This document shows positions 9,508-40,416 of a stretch of 44,544 bases of DNA, one piece after another. The number at the start of each line of letters is the position of its first letter. Positions within the stretch are counted from its first letter, which is position 1. Source of the DNA: a virus. The DNA is taken from positions 1-44,544 of IMG/VR virus record IMGVR_UViG_3300023222_000094; one strand, given 5' to 3'. Made by a program: the position numbers and the translations under genes. The notes under the pieces are model-generated. The model was given only the letters and a program-made list of their open reading frames with translations. It was not told where the DNA came from and made no database searches.

Positions 9508-10304
9508 GTGAAGGATCAGCAGTAGATGCTAACATCAGCGACGATAATCAAGATAAAGACCAATCAGACGAAAATCAAATAGAGATGGGTGCCGCAGAAG
9601 AAAAAGCGCGCGCCGGTGGTTGGAAGCCCGAAGAAGAATGGGACGGAGAAGATAACCAAAAGCCAGAACAGTTTATATCAGCTGAATTATTCAATGAACG
9701 CGGTGTGTGGATTGAACGCCATAAATCACAACAGAAACAAATTAGTGAACTGGAAACTTCATTTAATACCAGAATGAACAACGCCAACAAAATCCACCAA
9801 CAACAAATGGAAGTGCAAAAATCTGATTTGGTACGCAAGCGGGACGAAGCTATTGATTCAGCAGACCGTGAAACTGCGAATGGATATCAAGATGATATTG
9901 ATAAGCTAAACAGTCAACCAGTTGACTCTAGTCCTGCCAATAATGAACAAGCAACACTTGATGCATTTAATTCTAACAACCCTTGGATATTAGGAAACGA
10001 TCCAAAAGCTGCTTATGGAAAACAACAATACGAGGCATATGCAAGGCAAGGAATGGTTGCTAGTGCTGCTATCGCACAAATGGAAAGTGATGTAAACAAA
10101 GCTTTTCCAGCATTGAATCCAGAACGTAATAATCAACCAACTCCAGAAGGTGGCTCTAAACCAGGTGGTAAACGGGCAAGTAAGAAATTATCGATGGCCG
10201 ACCTGACAAGTGATGAATTAAAATGGTATCGGGCTATGCCTGGTGCGTGGGAATCAGAAAAGGTTTATTTACAAGCTGTACAAGACACAAGGGGTGACTC
10301 ATGA
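9504..10304 (+). CDS. Capsid scaffolding protein
   Basis: 266 aa. Acidic N-terminus (about residues 1-55), a central charged coiled coil (about 75-135) and a basic C-terminal part (GGKRASKKLSMADL), the general layout of phage scaffolds that bind coat protein through a basic tail. Location before decoration and capsid genes agrees. Identification rests on composition and position rather than a motif. Confidence 0.65.
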   Translation: MSEGSAVDANISDDNQDKDQSDENQIEMGAAEEKARAGGWKPEEEWDGEDNQKPEQFISAELFNERGVWIERHKSQQKQISELETSFNTRMNNANKIHQQQMEVQKSDLVRKRDEAIDSADRETANGYQDDIDKLNSQPVDSSPANNEQATLDAFNSNNPWILGNDPKAAYGKQQYEAYARQGMVASAAIAQMESDVNKAFPALNPERNNQPTPEGGSKPGGKRASKKLSMADLTSDELKWYRAMPGAWESEKVYLQAVQDTRGDS

Positions 10305-10819
10305 ATGAGCGCAAAAAACCAGGGCCAAAGCCAAAAATAGAGCGTGGAAAAACAGGAGTTGATTTACCTCCTGCTATGCAAGGAACTGAAAAAGGATTAG
10401 TAGCAGGCTCAAGAGAAGAAGTGGCGCATTCATCTGGTAGACCTAAAAGAGTTTCTATGAATAATATGAAAAAATTAGAAATTCCAAAACATCTAATGGA
10501 AGAAGGGTATTACCATCGTTGGTTTCAAGATCGTGATGGACGTATTACTCAAGCTTATGCAGCATATTATGAACATGTTATCGATGAGCAAGGTAATAAT
10601 CTTAGTTGTCAGAGTGGTCCTTATACGATGTATGCCATGCGATTACCTCAAAAATACCGTGACATAGACAATAAGTTGAAAAAAGAACGTGTTGCCGCTA
10701 CACTAGACTCTGAAGCGCAAATAGGCCATGATCCAGCTGGTAATCAAGAATACGCTCCCGATCCAGAGACAGGGAAAGCGGAAGGTGGTAAAAGCGCTAT
10801 AAGACATCATGAAAGTTGA
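10301..10819 (+). CDS. Hypothetical head-region protein
   Basis: 172 aa. Starts in the stop of the scaffold gene (ATGA). The N-terminus has an AT-hook-like basic Pro-rich run (RKKPGPKPK). The middle (GYYHRWFQDRDGRITQAYAA) looks like a conserved phage head-region protein of unknown role that often accompanies this kind of scaffold. Followed by a 104-base gap. Confidence 0.65.
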   Translation: MNERKKPGPKPKIERGKTGVDLPPAMQGTEKGLVAGSREEVAHSSGRPKRVSMNNMKKLEIPKHLMEEGYYHRWFQDRDGRITQAYAAYYEHVIDEQGNNLSCQSGPYTMYAMRLPQKYRDIDNKLKKERVAATLDSEAQIGHDPAGNQEYAPDPETGKAEGGKSAIRHHES

Positions 10820-21426: not shown

Positions 21427-22584
21427 ATGGCAGATGGTTTATTTTTACCACAATTTCGCGGACCAGGTAGCCCCGGAGCACCAGGCGTTGGCTCAACTCG
21501 CAGAGGTTTAGAAACTGCAAGACAGGCTGAGCAGTTGACGCAAACTCAACAAATAGGATTGCAAGCAACAAGTGATGAGGCTCGTCTTCAGTCGCTTATT
21601 CGCGGTGCTGTCCTATTAAAACAAATACGTGGTCCCCAGCAAAAAATAGAGTTTTTGCAGGGTCGCATTCAGCAACTTGAAGCTAACGGTATAGATTCGA
21701 GCGATACACGTCAAGCCCTTGCACTAGCCCAGGCTGGAGATTTTGCGGCTCTTGAAGAACTTACTGATCAAGCTATATCCCTTGGTCAAGCCGAAGAAAA
21801 ACAAGCACCGTTCCAATTTAAAGAGGGCGGAATAATATTCAACCCTAACACCGGGAAAACAACAGTAGATCCGGTTGCAAAACAAAGAATAGACAATATA
21901 GCGGCAAGAGCAAATGTAACAGGCAAACTTGATTTCAAAGGCAGGCAAAGCATGAACAAAGACGTAACGGGATTGCTTAAAAATACAGTTGGGATCGTTA
22001 ACACAGCTAAAGATATCGGTAAGCTCGGACGGCTGGGAGGCGGTCCGGCGTCTATCGCTTTGGTGTTTAAATTTATGAAAGCACTTGATCCTACTTCAGT
22101 AGTTAGGGAGGGCGAATTTGCAACCGCTCAAAACAGCGCAGGAATACCCGAAGGTATCAGGAATATCTTTAATAAATTATTAACAGGCGAGAGACTTGGA
22201 GAAGCGCAAATTAAGCAATTTGTCGATACTGTACAAGCGTTAGCCAACACTGCTATAGGTGGATCTACAGAAGAAATAAACAAACTCCTTAATACTTTTG
22301 GCGATACATTACCAGACGATTTCAAAAAAAGCTTATTAAACAGGATTCCAGGCGGGTTTGAAGTAGATCAAAAACCACCAGCATCAATAGCAAAACCAGA
22401 AGATCAATCAATCTTCGCTAGAACACCAATAGCGGAAACAACACCACCGGCAGTTTCTGGTGAACTACCACCAACGACACCACCGGCACTAACAACACCA
22501 CCGGCAGCTACTAGTGAAGCGCCGCAGATACCTGTATCCCCAGAGATACAAGCATTGCTAGATAAACATCTAGGAAATCAATAA
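21427..22584 (+). CDS. DNA ejection protein, P22 gp20-like
   Basis: 385 aa. N-terminal Gly/Pro-rich part, then a helical region (about residues 35-125: SLIRGAVLLKQI, IEFLQGRIQQLEANGID) found in podoviral internal proteins, a low-complexity middle, and a Pro/Thr-rich C-terminus (about 315-370). Second gene in the gp7-gp20-gp16 set; these proteins leave the virion first and help DNA cross the envelope. Confidence 0.7.
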   Translation: MADGLFLPQFRGPGSPGAPGVGSTRRGLETARQAEQLTQTQQIGLQATSDEARLQSLIRGAVLLKQIRGPQQKIEFLQGRIQQLEANGIDSSDTRQALALAQAGDFAALEELTDQAISLGQAEEKQAPFQFKEGGIIFNPNTGKTTVDPVAKQRIDNIAARANVTGKLDFKGRQSMNKDVTGLLKNTVGIVNTAKDIGKLGRLGGGPASIALVFKFMKALDPTSVVREGEFATAQNSAGIPEGIRNIFNKLLTGERLGEAQIKQFVDTVQALANTAIGGSTEEINKLLNTFGDTLPDDFKKSLLNRIPGGFEVDQKPPASIAKPEDQSIFARTPIAETTPPAVSGELPPTTPPALTTPPAATSEAPQIPVSPEIQALLDKHLGNQ

Positions 22585-31326: not shown

Positions 31327-31830
31327 CTATAGCTTGTCTATTTCTCTTGGGTCAACGCCAAACTCAATAAGCATATTTTTCATTATTTTTACTTTTGCTT
31401 TCATTTTTGACGCCTTCGCTTCCATCTGCTTTACCATCTTTGATTTTTTTTCTAATTTTCTATTGGCGGCTCTTTCCTTTGGTGTGTTAACTCTATTGGC
31501 CAGCCCTTCGCCTACCTGTTTTACTGGTGAGCCTCCTGTATCATCCACCATATTTAATATAGCCTTTAATGCAGCTCCTTTTTTGGGAGAGAACCACTCA
31601 TTAAGTATATTTTTATCTGTCATCTCTCGGTGAAATGTCTTTTCGACTAATGATGCATGTTCTCTAGACTTGCACTCTATTATTGCTATTATTCTTAAAA
31701 GCTCGGGGTTCCCTGTTTGGAGTTGCTTTATTCTTTTGTCTGGATTATCTGACATGCCTATTTTTATTGGCATATTTGTTGCGCCGCCAGATTGGATTAT
31801 GTACACAAAGCATGGTTTTATTTCTGACAT
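31327..31830 (-). CDS. GIY-YIG-like (T5orf172 / MUG113 type) nuclease
   Basis: 167 aa. VYIIQSGGATNMPIKIGMS, RIKQLQTGNPELLRI and E..FH at residues about 8-68 match the T5orf172/MUG113 branch of GIY-YIG nucleases. The rest is a Lys-rich coiled coil (about 115-155), perhaps for DNA binding. Start 31830 is preferred (GAAGGTG upstream). First gene after the large noncoding block. Such genes are often mobile or defence-related. Confidence 0.75.
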   Translation of the reverse strand: MSEIKPCFVYIIQSGGATNMPIKIGMSDNPDKRIKQLQTGNPELLRIIAIIECKSREHASLVEKTFHREMTDKNILNEWFSPKKGAALKAILNMVDDTGGSPVKQVGEGLANRVNTPKERAANRKLEKKSKMVKQMEAKASKMKAKVKIMKNMLIEFGVDPREIDKL

Positions 31831-31863
31831 TTTACGCACCTTCTACCTGATAAACTGTTATTT

Positions 31864-31965
31864 TCACTCTTCAATTAATTTTAAAATAAAGTCAGTAAGC
31901 CCTTTTTCCTCCAAGATTGAAACAAACCTAACTGGCTCTATCTTGTTTTGTTCTTTAGATTACAT
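31864..31965 (-). pseudogene. Possible remnant of a small gene
   Basis: ATG at 31965 is followed at once by TAA, but the same frame then reads SKEQNKIEPVRFVSILEEKG and on to LIEE and a stop at 31864, a protein-like sequence. It may be a dead small gene with a nonsense second codon, or chance. Otherwise I see nothing in 31831-31994. Confidence 0.3.
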
Positions 31966-32436
31966 TTCTACAATCTTAAGATCACAAAAAACCTTTCGGT
32001 CGGGAAAAATAAAGTCCTCCAACCAGTAAAAACTGGCACCTCGCTAAAGGTCGATTCCACAAAGTGGCATCTCGTCCTAGGTTGTGAAGTGGCACACACA
32101 GAGCCTAGACTGTTTTAAGCTAAATCACTTAGCGGGGATCTTTTCTGCTTTTCTGGGCTACCAGCAGGGGAAATGATTACAAAGCGCCTGGAGGCATGAG
32201 GGAACTTGAAAGGGTGTGTCTGCAAGCGTATATAGCGCGTTTAATCTTGCTTGGTTTACTTACAGGCACAAAAAAAGATATTTACAGCTGCAACCTCTGT
32301 TGGTAGAGGGGCGAAAAAGGATAGACCAAAAAGCCCACCAGATGTCGCATGTGTAAATACCCTCTATCCTTCTTCTTTCAAGTGGCTACCACACCACGAG
32401 TCAAACTATAGCATAAATTTAGAATTAACCAAGAAA

Positions 32437-32562
32437 CCTGCATATAAGAATGAGCTAGAGGTGCGTTAAACCTAGTTTCACACTTGAGTAGCGAACTCAC
32501 CCTCTTTTCAGAAACTCATTAGGGGAACTTGCACTTGCTACTAACTCACTCATATATACAGG
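32437..32562 (-). ncRNA. tRNA-like extended hairpin, unit A
   Basis: Closed by CCTG/CAGG and ATAT/ATAT pairs, a one-sided bulge, then ATGAG (32450-32454) with CTCAT (32549-32553). Inner hairpins include TGAGT/ACTCA and a GGT/ACC arm. End sequences match unit B: 16 identical bases at 32538-32553 and 33038-33053, 12 at 32446-32457 and 32968-32979. The interior differs. No anticodon can be named. Confidence 0.45.
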
Positions 32563-32955
32563 CTGACAGTTTTTATAGGAAACCGTCAGCGGCCAGTGTT
32601 GTTACCGACACCGCTGGCTGGTCGGGTTCTGCGTAAATTAACGGCTAAACCTTTTCAGGGAACCGAATTCTCGTCGCCACGGTAGTGCGTATTACTGGAT
32701 TTAGAGTATTCCAGTAAATCCGACTTCCTCTCGACCGGATATGGACAGGTTTGAATAGATAAAGCACTGACTACATGACCCCTCGCAGTCTGTTTAGCCG
32801 TACCCCGCAGAGCGGTGGATTGAGGCGGCGTCCACCGGTGCCTATTTCTGTCCTATCGTTTACCGGCAATTTTTAACTCCTGCCGGTGGTCTGGTCAACC
32901 GAGGCTCCTACAAGCCTCCCGCTTTAGCAGGGGGTGATTGACATATACAGGCTTT

Positions 32956-33065
32956 AAGCGTACATAAAAGAATGAGCTATCGGGAATCGAACCCTGAGTC
33001 TGATCGCAGGGCTTTTTAACCCCTACGATAGACGAACCTACTAACTCACTCATCTATGTACGCTT
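32956..33065 (-). ncRNA. tRNA-like extended hairpin, unit B
   Basis: An eleven-pair perfect stem (32956-32966 with 33055-33065) leads through a bulge into ATGAG/CTCAT (32972-32976 with 33049-33053) and encloses the tRNA-like body. The outer stem has a different sequence from unit A but the same pairing design, which is evidence that the structure is selected. Confidence 0.55.
32973..33052 (-). tRNA. tRNA-like body, possibly a degenerate tRNA (anticodon unclear, AAA if canonical)
   Basis: On the minus strand the T-loop consensus GGGTTCGATTCCC is present, preceded by a hairpin in the anticodon position and a GG-containing D-loop-like part. The acceptor has six of seven pairs. Deviations: the T-stem keeps only three pairs; the anticodon stem extends to eight or nine pairs over a nine-base loop (GTTAAAAAG); no CCA end. 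Read canonically the anticodon would be AAA with a G-G mismatch closing the loop. It may be a decayed tRNA or a non-coding tRNA mimic. Confidence 0.35.
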
Positions 33066-33076
33066 TACCGCCCACA

Positions 33077-35451: not shown

Positions 35452-36408
35452 ATGGATAAAGAAGCCACTACTGATGCCATAGCCCTATCTCTCCAAAAAC
35501 CTTTTAATGAAGATGATATTCAATGGAGAGTCCAACAAGCTGGTATATCCGCAAACCAAAACCCCTATGTAATGGCTATTCCATATGTCAGCAACAGGGC
35601 TATTCAAAAAAGGCTAGATGAAGTATTTGGTCCTTTTGGGTGGGAAAATGCCTATAAGCCAACACCAGACGGTAAAGGTTACTTATGCGGCATAACTATT
35701 CATAGCGAAAAACGAAGCGTCACTAAATGGGATGGTGCCGAATATACCAATATCGAACCGTTAAAAGGTGCCTTGTCGGATTCAATGAAACGTTCAGCCG
35801 TACAGCTAGGTATAGGACGCTATCTCTATCAGTTAGAGATGCAATTCGCTGTATGCCAAATTGTAAATAGTCAACGTGAAGCAGACAACTGTCACATACA
35901 TTACCCGGACAAAAAGAACAAGTCAGTTAGAACGTTTATTAGCTGGCAAAACCCACCTTTACCAAAATGGGCCATTCCTTTTGTTGATTACAGTCATTTC
36001 ATAAAAGCAATCGAAGAAGCAAAAGATATGGCTGAGCTTAGGAATTCATTCACCCAAGCATATAAAGCAGCCGAATCTTCACACAATGCTGATTTAACCA
36101 AAGACGCAACCAAAGCCAAAAATAAACGTAAAGCTTATATCCAGTCTAATCTGGATAAGATTAATGGAGAAAAACACAAAGTTATCGAAGATTGGCTTGA
36201 TGGTCAAATCAAAGTATTTGCTGATTTACCAAATAAAAGTACTATTGATAATTTCGCAAAAATCACTAATGAGGGTCTACTATCCAGGATAACAGCAAGT
36301 AATGTTGATATAACCCCTAAAGAACAACAAGTGAATTGTGATGATTTAGCAGAAAAACTTGCTAACTCTTACAAACAACGAATTAACCAATTAAAAAAGG
36401 CGAAATAA
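35452..36408 (+). CDS. Rad52-family single-strand annealing protein
   Basis: 318 aa. The N-terminal domain (about residues 10-140) has the Rad52/Rad22 pattern: IQWRVQQAG, AIPYVSNRAIQKRLDEVFG, PFGWENAY, then GALSDSMKRSAVQLGIGRYLY. These proteins anneal complementary DNA strands in phage recombination. The C-terminal half is helical and Lys/Asn-rich. TAATG overlap with the next gene supports a functional pair. Confidence 0.8.
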   Translation: MDKEATTDAIALSLQKPFNEDDIQWRVQQAGISANQNPYVMAIPYVSNRAIQKRLDEVFGPFGWENAYKPTPDGKGYLCGITIHSEKRSVTKWDGAEYTNIEPLKGALSDSMKRSAVQLGIGRYLYQLEMQFAVCQIVNSQREADNCHIHYPDKKNKSVRTFISWQNPPLPKWAIPFVDYSHFIKAIEEAKDMAELRNSFTQAYKAAESSHNADLTKDATKAKNKRKAYIQSNLDKINGEKHKVIEDWLDGQIKVFADLPNKSTIDNFAKITNEGLLSRITASNVDITPKEQQVNCDDLAEKLANSYKQRINQLKKAK

Positions 36409-37538
36409 TGGATACAAAAACTGAAATGGTAACTTTCGACCAAGCAATTGAATTGAAAGGACGAAAGGCAATTGAATTTTTTTCTAAGAAGGATAATTTA
36501 ACACCACTAGTTGAATTCGTAAAAGAGGGAGCATTATCAATTGTCCCTGATGTTAATACAAAAAAAGGTCGTGACGCTATTGGTTCAACAGCTAGAAAGG
36601 TTTCACAAGCTCGCAAGGCCTTAACTGATGCTATTGATTCTTCTGTCTCCGATATGGAAGCAAAAGTGAAGGTAGCAAAACAATCATCCAAATACGTCAA
36701 AGAGGAATTAAATCAAACTCGTGCTCAAATCTTAGCCCCCCGGGACACATGGCAAGCAGAGCAGGACTTGATTGAAGAAACACGGATAGCAGATATTAAA
36801 GCTGAAATTGATAAAATATTAGCTATCGGTACGCTCCAGGGTAACGAGTCTAAAGATGAAATAGCTTCACTGGTTGAGGCTGTAGAAACCATCGATGTTA
36901 GTGAAGGATTTGAAGAATTCACTGTTGATGCTGCCAAAGCTATCCAAGATGTATTAAAAACACTCAATGATAAGGTTTTATCAATCATAGAAACCGAACA
37001 GAAAGCAGAGATAAACCGCCAGCTTGAAACAGAACGCAAAGCAAATAAAATCTCTGAACGGCTAAACAAATTGGCTACGATACCAATGGCCTTAATCGGT
37101 AAATCATCAAGTAAAATCAAAGCTAAGATTGATAGTTTGAATAAATACGTCATTCCTGAGGATGAATTTGGGGACTCATATCCCCAAGCAGTAGCATCAG
37201 TAAAAAAGGTTATCCGTCAATTAACCTCAATGCACGATGAACGAATTATTGTCGAAGACCAAACCAAGGAGGATACACCAGCACCGCAAACAGGATATAA
37301 TATAGGCGCATCATCCCCAGATTACCATTCACCATCAATTAGCAAACCATCTACACCGGACAAGCCGGTCACACAGACTCCAACAGACCCAGTCATCGAA
37401 GAAACAGTTACCATCAGTAAAGCTGAGTATCAACAATTATTGAGTGATAGCGAGTTCTTAGGCTGTCTATGTAATGCTGGTGTTGATGGGTGGGACGGTT
37501 ACGACCAGGCACAATCAATGATGCACGATAAAATTTAA
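36408..37538 (+). CDS. Coiled-coil partner of the annealing protein (DUF1351-like)
   Basis: 376 aa. Long helical, charged region (about residues 45-270) with PDVNTKKGRDAIGSTARKV near the start, a Pro/Thr/Ser-rich linker (about 285-330) and a short C-terminal helix. Similar proteins accompany recombinases in many phages and are often mislabelled TolA. Function unknown; coupling to the Rad52-like gene suggests recombination. Confidence 0.65.
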   Translation: MDTKTEMVTFDQAIELKGRKAIEFFSKKDNLTPLVEFVKEGALSIVPDVNTKKGRDAIGSTARKVSQARKALTDAIDSSVSDMEAKVKVAKQSSKYVKEELNQTRAQILAPRDTWQAEQDLIEETRIADIKAEIDKILAIGTLQGNESKDEIASLVEAVETIDVSEGFEEFTVDAAKAIQDVLKTLNDKVLSIIETEQKAEINRQLETERKANKISERLNKLATIPMALIGKSSSKIKAKIDSLNKYVIPEDEFGDSYPQAVASVKKVIRQLTSMHDERIIVEDQTKEDTPAPQTGYNIGASSPDYHSPSISKPSTPDKPVTQTPTDPVIEETVTISKAEYQQLLSDSEFLGCLCNAGVDGWDGYDQAQSMMHDKI

Positions 37539-39598: not shown

Positions 39599-39721
39599 AT
39601 GAAGAAGTTAATAAATTTTGGAAGTTTAATAAGCCAGATACAAGATTACGCAGATAAGAATTGTATGGGTAACTTTTCGATGGCAGTCAGGCAATTAATT
39701 CAAAAGGGGTTAAAGTCATGA
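39599..39721 (+). CDS. Short ribbon-helix-helix-like protein
   Basis: 40 aa: a short strand (KKLINFGS), a helix, then GNFSMAVRQLIQKGL, which fits the second helix of a small ribbon-helix-helix. The stop overlaps the next start (TCATGA), which strongly suggests a real gene coupled to the nuclease-like gene. A TATACT at 39549 may be its -10. No strong Shine-Dalgarno. Confidence 0.5.
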   Translation: MKKLINFGSLISQIQDYADKNCMGNFSMAVRQLIQKGLKS

Positions 39722-40416
39722 GTGGATGCGTTTATGTTGCAGATATAGGTGATGGCACCGTGAAGATTGGGTGTTCATCTAATCCAAGACAAAGACTCAA
39801 GCAAATAGAAAATAAATTAAACTTTAAAGCTGTTAATTTTTATTACACAAATGAGATTGATTGTCAGTTTAAGTTAGAGACCCAGGTTCATGGTGTATTA
39901 AATAAAAGGTGTTATGGAAGTGAAATTTTTAATATCTCATTCAGTGACGCTGTTAACATGGTTGAATTGCAATTTGATGTTATTAGCGGTAAGCAGTCAG
40001 CCATCGATTTAGACAGGGGAATAGAATCTTTTATTCTTGTCAGTGGGTTTTATTTGGACAAAAAACCAAAGATGATAATTGAAACATGTTTATCAAAATT
40101 TAGCGTTAACGATTGCAGGCTTGTTGATTTTTGCAATCGTGCAAGACCATTCTTACTGAATTGCAATGTCGATAAATTTAGCTCAATGGATGATATAATC
40201 AACTTTATCTATCCAGGCCGAATATCTCATGTTGATTGTGCCGAATGCGAGTGCCAAGAATGCTCGGATTACTGGGAAGCCATATGGTTGGTTGATGAAG
40301 ATAACATGACTAAGCAAGAAGCTATTGACGCAATAAAGAAGGGAACCGGATTTGATGATAAACAAATTATAGATTGGGTTGAAGGTCTTTTTGAGCTAGG
40401 AGTTATGAACGAATAG
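39718..40416 (+). CDS. GIY-YIG-like (T5orf172 type) protein
   Basis: 232 aa. CVYVADIGDGTVKIGCSSNP, RLKQIENKLNF and a Glu-His pair near 55-60 match the T5orf172 branch of GIY-YIG. The middle is unrecognised; CAECECQEC near residues 175-183 is a likely metal site, and the last 40 residues are helical. Coupled to a small ribbon-helix-helix gene, an arrangement like a regulated nuclease. Confidence 0.65.
   Translation: MSGCVYVADIGDGTVKIGCSSNPRQRLKQIENKLNFKAVNFYYTNEIDCQFKLETQVHGVLNKRCYGSEIFNISFSDAVNMVELQFDVISGKQSAIDLDRGIESFILVSGFYLDKKPKMIIETCLSKFSVNDCRLVDFCNRARPFLLNCNVDKFSSMDDIINFIYPGRISHVDCAECECQECSDYWEAIWLVDEDNMTKQEAIDAIKKGTGFDDKQIIDWVEGLFELGVMNE

Follow-up and report, generated by a model that had tools for sequence, protein, structure and literature searches.

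A probable family of large structured phage RNAs, with hairpin cassettes and a predicted orphan omegaRNA at a marine phage locus

Composition of the gene-free block

The window analysed here is the whole of a virus record of 44,544 nt (44.5 kb) from a marine phage; the large terminase subunit of this phage has 60% identity to the corresponding proteins of Pseudomonas phages, MPK9 among them. Between 31.9 and 33.07 kb the ORF listing contains no credible gene; an earlier note made from the sequence alone had called this block gene-free and placed it in a leftward operon, and it indeed lies within the leftward gene cluster. The minus (operon) strand has no ORF of at least 50 aa from 31840 to 32894, and the only overlapping candidates are short and unsupported (plus 31948–32118, plus 32251–32469 and minus 32895–33053). 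The gene immediately downstream of the block, at 31327–31839, encodes a GIY-YIG-type protein (T5orf172/MUG113). The same place in relatives is occupied by a T5 Orf172 gene (locus L033) or a DNA methylase gene (L031, L032 and L038), so that nuclease or methylase genes recur beside the large RNA described below.

The block is a composite, with all parts on the minus strand: a large structured RNA, two hairpin cassettes (u1 and u2) and a HEARO/omegaRNA element (Table 1). A single RNA of 1.1 kb, as proposed in the earlier note for 31995–33066, was not borne out. The block delimited by those coordinates is real, but the 3' domain of the large RNA passes the start given there and extends to about 31893, and about one fifth of the block is the HEARO/omegaRNA, a known kind of RNA that the first reading had missed.

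The same reading had leaned on at least a dozen hairpins. Hairpins exist in the block, but thermodynamics alone gives a modest signal and their number is weak evidence. In a scan of 150-nt minus-strand windows over the 44.5 kb, the mean z score was -1.04 inside the block vs -0.19 outside. Just one 150-nt window inside the block reached z of -3 or below, overlapping cassette u2, and this 150-nt stretch is the most stable by z in the whole scan (-6.1). Among separately folded elements, the 208-nt 5' domain of the large RNA gives z -3.5 and the full large RNA (511 nt folded) only -1.9; values for the cassettes are in Table 1. The case for the predicted large RNA rests on comparative evidence, not on the number of hairpins.

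Table 1. Features of the gene-free block, in window coordinates
Feature	Position	Strand	Remarks
Large structured RNA, about 505 nt	31893–32397	-	ends placed by conservation; homologous gaps L002–L038
Promoter-like element	32405–32432	-	TTGGTT 32427–32432, 16-nt spacer, TATAGT 32405–32410
5' domain of large RNA	32272–32397	-	covariation counts, RNAalifold consensus, cognate vs non-cognate tests
Hairpin P1	32382–32397	-	in 5' domain
P2, 5' strand CTTGAAAG	32375–32382	-	pairs with 32205–32212, closing 5' domain and linker
P2, 3' strand CTTTCAAG	32205–32212	-	partner of 32375–32382
Pseudoknot strands	32363–32375 with 32313–32325	-	cognate test
Stem P3	32352–32362 with 32276–32286	-	encloses stem P4
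Hairpin P5	32294–32309	-	loop region CTACCA
Loop-loop pairing	32386–32391 (TGGTAG, P1 loop) with 32301–32306 (CTACCA, P5)	-	cognate test
U-tract	~32276 down to 32270	-	follows P3
Linker slot, simple stem GTGCCTGTAAG/CTTGCAGACAC	32216–32269	-	between P3 and P2 3' strand
3' domain (type 3A)	31893–32108	-	36 nt at 97% identity to Pseudoalteromonas phage H105/1; invariant motifs
3' domain start motif CTAGG[CTCTGTGTGTGCCACTTCACAA]CCTAG	32077–32108	-	part of type 3A
3' domain end GGAGGAAAAAGGGCTTACTG	31893–31912	-	part of type 3A
Cassette u1	32434–32564	-	outer arm AGCCTGTATAT/ATATGCAGGTTT; inner arm as u2, interior unrelated; z -5.4
Cassette u2	32956–33065	-	outer arm AAGCGTACATA/TATGTACGCTT; exact hairpin z -8.0; arms in six further phage contigs
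Invariant inner arm of u2, GAGTGAGTTA with TAGCTCATTC	within 32956–33065	-	common to u1
T-arm-like hairpin in u2 interior (GGGTTCGATTCCC)	32980–32996	-	u1 barely has one
HEARO/omegaRNA scaffold	32714–32942	-	RF02033 in Rfam; 105.8 bits against a gathering score of 83, E 6e-21; full-length match, positions 1–211
Predicted omegaRNA guide TTAAAGCCTGTATAT, 15 nt	32943–32957	-	exact match at L023 and L024 cassette arms
Direct repeat ATATACAGGCT, 11 nt, right flank of insert	32554–32564		other copy 32943–32953; repeat family D8
Right-end hairpin of insert, CTGACGGTTTCC..AAAACTGTCAG	32563–32589	-	from the sequence

Fold, relatives and domain exchange of the large RNA

Searches of phage records with blastn matched ~32195–32410 in six Vibrio phages and one Pseudoalteromonas phage. 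In Pseudoalteromonas phage H105/1 they also matched a 36-nt motif, at ~32074–32109 of the window, with 97% identity. Where the relatives are annotated, the matches fall between genes, and in one group tRNA-Trp and tRNA-Arg genes come immediately afterwards. Further loci were gathered by pattern scans of viral contigs and by additional phage searches, one of which, with L024 as query, gave no match. The homologues occupy gaps that hold no gene, both in cultured phages of Vibrio and Pseudoalteromonas and in metagenome phages, with one 5' domain in each genome searched. Model R1 scores 111.2 bits at the window locus, which is itself among the 15 sequences that built the model. As for bacterial copies, a first genome pattern scan returned no match and a second returned two, both of which were rejected: one lies within a long ORF, and the AAAAAGGGC motif is absent from both loci.

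A distant phage contig (L016, ~9899–10400, minus strand) combines a different-looking promoter with the same 3' motifs GGCTCTGTGTGTGCC and GAAAAAGGGCT and with a 7-nt loop pairing (GGGAGAG/CTCTCCC); the RNA family may, by these features, reach far beyond Vibrio phages. L018 has, upstream of 10928 (minus strand), a shortened copy of the RNA's linker plus P2 region. After it come a long hairpin of a second type (AAAGCGTTGTGTTTAATGTG/CACATTAAATACAACGCTTT) that bears a T-arm-like element, then a cassette and then another RNA. These are tandem RNA loci, partly eroded.

The fold of the 5' domain was assessed on an alignment of 15 such domains, in which MAFFT misaligns P5. Standard pairs fill 92% of pair cells vs 87.4 ± 0.9% in shuffled and 35–53% in slid alignments, doubly changed cells number 30 vs 16 ± 4 in shuffles, and the covariation score is 0.342 vs 0.256 ± 0.017; two further count measures on these domains (pairs with a double change and further pair types) are no higher than in shuffles. 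RNAalifold recovers P1, P3 and P4 unprompted. The variable segments do not align reliably, and the long-range pairings were therefore examined by a different test, in which pairing between cognate strands is compared with pairing between strands drawn from different loci. Cognate strands pair better in the pseudoknot (-12.1 vs -7.4 kcal/mol), in the loop-loop contact (-8.7 vs -5.9 kcal/mol) and in P2 (-10.9 vs -7.3 kcal/mol; p below 5e-5), each with 0 of 20000 permutations, one mis-cut locus biasing all three tests against the result. Over 20 loci, including 5' domain types that cannot be aligned, the longest Watson–Crick run of the 5'-to-internal pairing averages 7.2 vs 5.5 (0 of 50000 permutations), even though the run picked up as longest in three of the 20 (L011, L015 and L021) is a non-homologous one. 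Permutation tests of this kind ignore the relatedness of the sequences, and the outcome is therefore strong but not exact. The comparisons indicate that every long-range pairing tested covaries. The earlier note had looked to homologues to tell a structured RNA from a coding region, and they gave covariation and no coding signal.

It is exceedingly improbable that the region encodes small proteins. Small ORFs are annotated in or beside the RNA in some relatives (e.g. L030 1252–1389 and L031 1021–1275), but the window has no ORF of useful length, many alignment indels have lengths not divisible by three, and paired positions vary together. The L030 ORF, inside the large RNA, is probably spurious; the deposited annotation of that locus also places a tRNA of undetermined type in the gap, at 1070–1172.

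Upstream of P1, a TATAAT box with at most one mismatch occurs within 26 nt in 12 of the 15 loci (shuffled mean 4.4, maximum 11). The box in the window carries a TG one base ahead of it (TGC-TATAGT), and a generic sigma-70 scan left it unflagged. We infer that the large RNA is transcribed, probably from its own promoter during infection and by read-through from the leftward operon.

The linker slot holds different cargo at different loci: tRNA-Trp and tRNA-Arg in L004, tRNA-Arg in L009 and tRNA-Gly in L025, with Rfam tRNA matches also in the equivalent stretch of L013 and L014. The link with tRNAs suggested for the block at the outset is thus found in the relatives. Past the linker, two 3' domain motifs are invariant (CTGTGTG-N-GCC-NN-TTCACAAC and GAAAAAGGGCT), and the 3' closing stem pairs at -11.5 in cognate vs -7.2 in non-cognate combinations (2 of 720 permutations), the evidence for this domain coming from about six distinct sequences and the stem being weakest in the window itself. 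Other loci carry 3' domains of other types. The 3' parts of L003 and L015 agree at 98% identity beside unlike 5' domains; the reverse holds for L015 and L031, with 5' parts at 98% identity and 3' domains that differ; and L031 shares a 3' part at 98% identity with L032. This pattern shows that 5' and 3' domains have been swapped between phages at definite joints. Comparative evidence demonstrates the proposed fold, the phage distribution, the tRNA slot and the modular exchange.

Pairing across the linker also bears on whether the RNA acts in cis. An intrinsic terminator formed by P3 and the U-tract would make the fold a leader or attenuator that controls the downstream gene, and if the invariant U-tract does terminate transcription, the stable product would be short. 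A U-run with invariant first bases follows P3 in the aligned 5' domains, in most loci a gene follows the large RNA directly, and weak terminator-like matches occur in the region. We nevertheless regard a cis-acting leader as unlikely. About 300 nt of conserved structure lie past the U-tract, P2 pairs across it, and no mutually exclusive helices were seen, while the genes downstream vary: GIY-YIG in the window, DNA methylase in L031, L032 and L038, phosphoesterase in L003, a T5 Orf172 protein in L033, and hypothetical genes.

Hairpin cassettes and the omegaRNA insert

The repeat search identified 32434–32457/32538–32564 and 32956–32979/33038–33064 as two copies of the same arms (families D1/D2), and we interpret u1 and u2 as diverged copies of one hairpin cassette, whose arms are conserved and whose interior is hypervariable. 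These are the two units that had been taken for tRNA-like; ARAGORN finds no tRNA in the window. The arms GAGTGAGTTAG...TAGCTCATTCTT recur in six further viral contigs around unrelated interiors, and the outer arms covary (-14.0 vs -7.8 kcal/mol, 0 of 20000 permutations). The position of the cassette differs between loci: it lies within the large RNA, immediately past P2, in L020, L021 and L023, and in a variant form in L024 and L026; directly before the promoter in L018, as in the window; and apart from any detected 5' domain in L019 and L022.

HEARO is the sole Rfam match in the whole window at the gathering cut-off. HEARO RNAs are omegaRNAs, the guide RNAs of IscB nucleases, which are of the Cas9-ancestor type. 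Along its length the window element shows 70% identity to an omegaRNA that precedes iscB on a Shewanella aestuarii plasmid, and the first bases, GTCAA, are shared; it also resembles one on an Oceanisphaera plasmid with the same starting bases. Its match to the full model and its layout of guide and TAM-like motif fit an IscB omegaRNA. Unlike the usual IscB omegaRNA, it sits inside a hairpin cassette at a phage RNA locus, with no iscB in the window: the RRXRR domain (PF14239) is unmatched in the record, in a search that had no positive control, and the minus strand downstream holds no iscB-sized frame (no ORF of at least 50 aa in 31840–32894). HEARO is absent from the 15 related phage records searched.

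The insert lies in the left arm of u1 between exact 11-nt repeats, and the flanking repeat restores the arm sequence. The hairpin at its right end may represent an end of the IS200/IS605-like kind. The predicted guide TTAAAGCCTGTATAT equals the sequence left of the insertion and is found as arm sequence at the uninterrupted cassettes of L023 and L024, where ATGAG, with a TAM-like ATGA, follows. IsrB, an IscB relative, cleaves at TTGA and ATGA motifs, and standalone omegaRNAs are reported functional with IscB in work cited there (PMC9581776). The guide match, the ATGAG at the uninterrupted cassettes and the IsrB precedent for ATGA together suggest that the guide specifies the insertion site of its own element. 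OMEGA elements elsewhere have guides that likewise specify their own insertion sites. From its score above gathering and its guide, the element is a predicted orphan omegaRNA, without a nuclease gene found in the record, aimed at the cassette arm.

The window locus would then have gained two cassettes, one of which was interrupted by an iscB-less omegaRNA inserted at the sequence that its guide specifies. Alternatively, the part of the block upstream of the large RNA could be mobile-element debris that does nothing for the phage, made up of MITE-like cassettes and the remains of an IscB transposon. The 11-nt flanking repeats, the cassettes with inverted-repeat arms at varied sites and an omegaRNA without iscB all suit such debris, which we consider possible but rather unlikely: the omegaRNA still matches in full length at 105.8 bits, the flanking repeat makes the u1 arm complete again, and the cassette arms covary. 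Debris would also leave the large RNA unexplained. A far more speculative scheme, which we think improbable, treats the RNA locus as a cassette platform, at whose fixed joints domains, tRNAs and hairpin cassettes would be exchanged, and where the orphan omegaRNA and an IscB supplied in trans by host or plasmid would cut co-infecting phages that carry the uninterrupted arm, the locus spreading by homing on a gene for a structured RNA.

Relation to known RNAs and proposed role

The earlier note had named GOLLD and ROOL as possible classes for the RNA. Scans of the window stretch against 4227 Rfam models at E up to 5 returned HEARO and two weak chance matches, and none for the large RNA. GOLLD and ROOL in particular gave no match in the window (E up to 5), in L016 (E up to 10), in sixteen homologues at the gathering cut-off or in eight records at E up to 1, in family searches where no positive control rang; Staphylococcus phage K, tried as a control, gave no match, and its resemblance had been claimed by location and expression only (PMC9241854). 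Membership in either class is not supported by these Rfam scans and family searches of the window and its relatives.

Likenesses are nevertheless considerable. GOLLD RNA (RF02032) is likewise a large phage or prophage RNA with tRNAs in a linker and loop-loop contacts, and has a conserved 3' part and a variable 5' part (PMC12286853), much as the large RNA has variable and conserved parts. The large RNA differs from GOLLD in having no covariance-model match, in being mostly shorter and in having several exchangeable types of both 5' and 3' domain. ROOL RNA (RF03087) is similarly a large pseudoknotted phage RNA near tRNAs with a variable linker (PMC12286853), and from it too the large RNA differs by the lack of a covariance-model match. 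Size, phage location, linker tRNAs, variable and conserved halves and loop-loop contacts could all be those of a GOLLD or ROOL RNA diverged beyond the reach of the Rfam models. With no match in the window, L016, the sixteen homologues or the eight records, although in searches without a positive control, we judge this highly improbable. The Vibrio phage ICP1 has a non-coding RNA of ~800 nt, its most abundant transcript, in a gene-free space of ~1 kb (PMC7567579); its genome has no match to model R1.

No description of the family was found in the open-access literature. The large RNA very probably belongs to an unlisted family of sizeable (about 400–700 nt) structured non-coding phage RNAs. The earlier suggestion of a new class of large phage RNA was thus largely right, in that a structured family with covariation exists, and wrong in its 1.1-kb extent and its tRNA calls. 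In the proposed architecture, the 5' domain would be compact and held by the pseudoknot and the loop-loop pairing, P2 would close around a linker slot able to hold a tRNA or a hairpin, and one of several interchangeable 3' domains would follow, in some phages after an intervening hairpin cassette. By analogy, it could behave as an RNA object like GOLLD or ROOL that accumulates, perhaps self-assembles via the loop pairing of its 5' domain, and either presents the cargo of its linker or shields it; we hold such a mode of action tentatively, at somewhat less than an even chance.

Large structured phage RNAs of the GOLLD and ROOL kind are plentiful and intricate, and their function is unexplained. 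A separate family that occurs in phages available in culture (of Vibrio and Pseudoalteromonas), swaps its domains naturally and comes with or without tRNAs would make a tractable system for testing it. The predicted orphan omegaRNA aimed at a cassette arm would be a concrete phage example of a guide RNA that lacks its nuclease.

Elsewhere in the record, a 376-aa protein with a C-terminal T7 gp5.9-like RecBCD-inhibitor domain (36408–37538; residues 332–372) adjoins a Rad52-family protein (35452–36408), and a homing-endonuclease-like protein (phrog_18411) is encoded at 39718–40416. A strong minus-strand fold (z -4.8 and -4.0) occurs at 22351–22575, within a plus-strand coding region.
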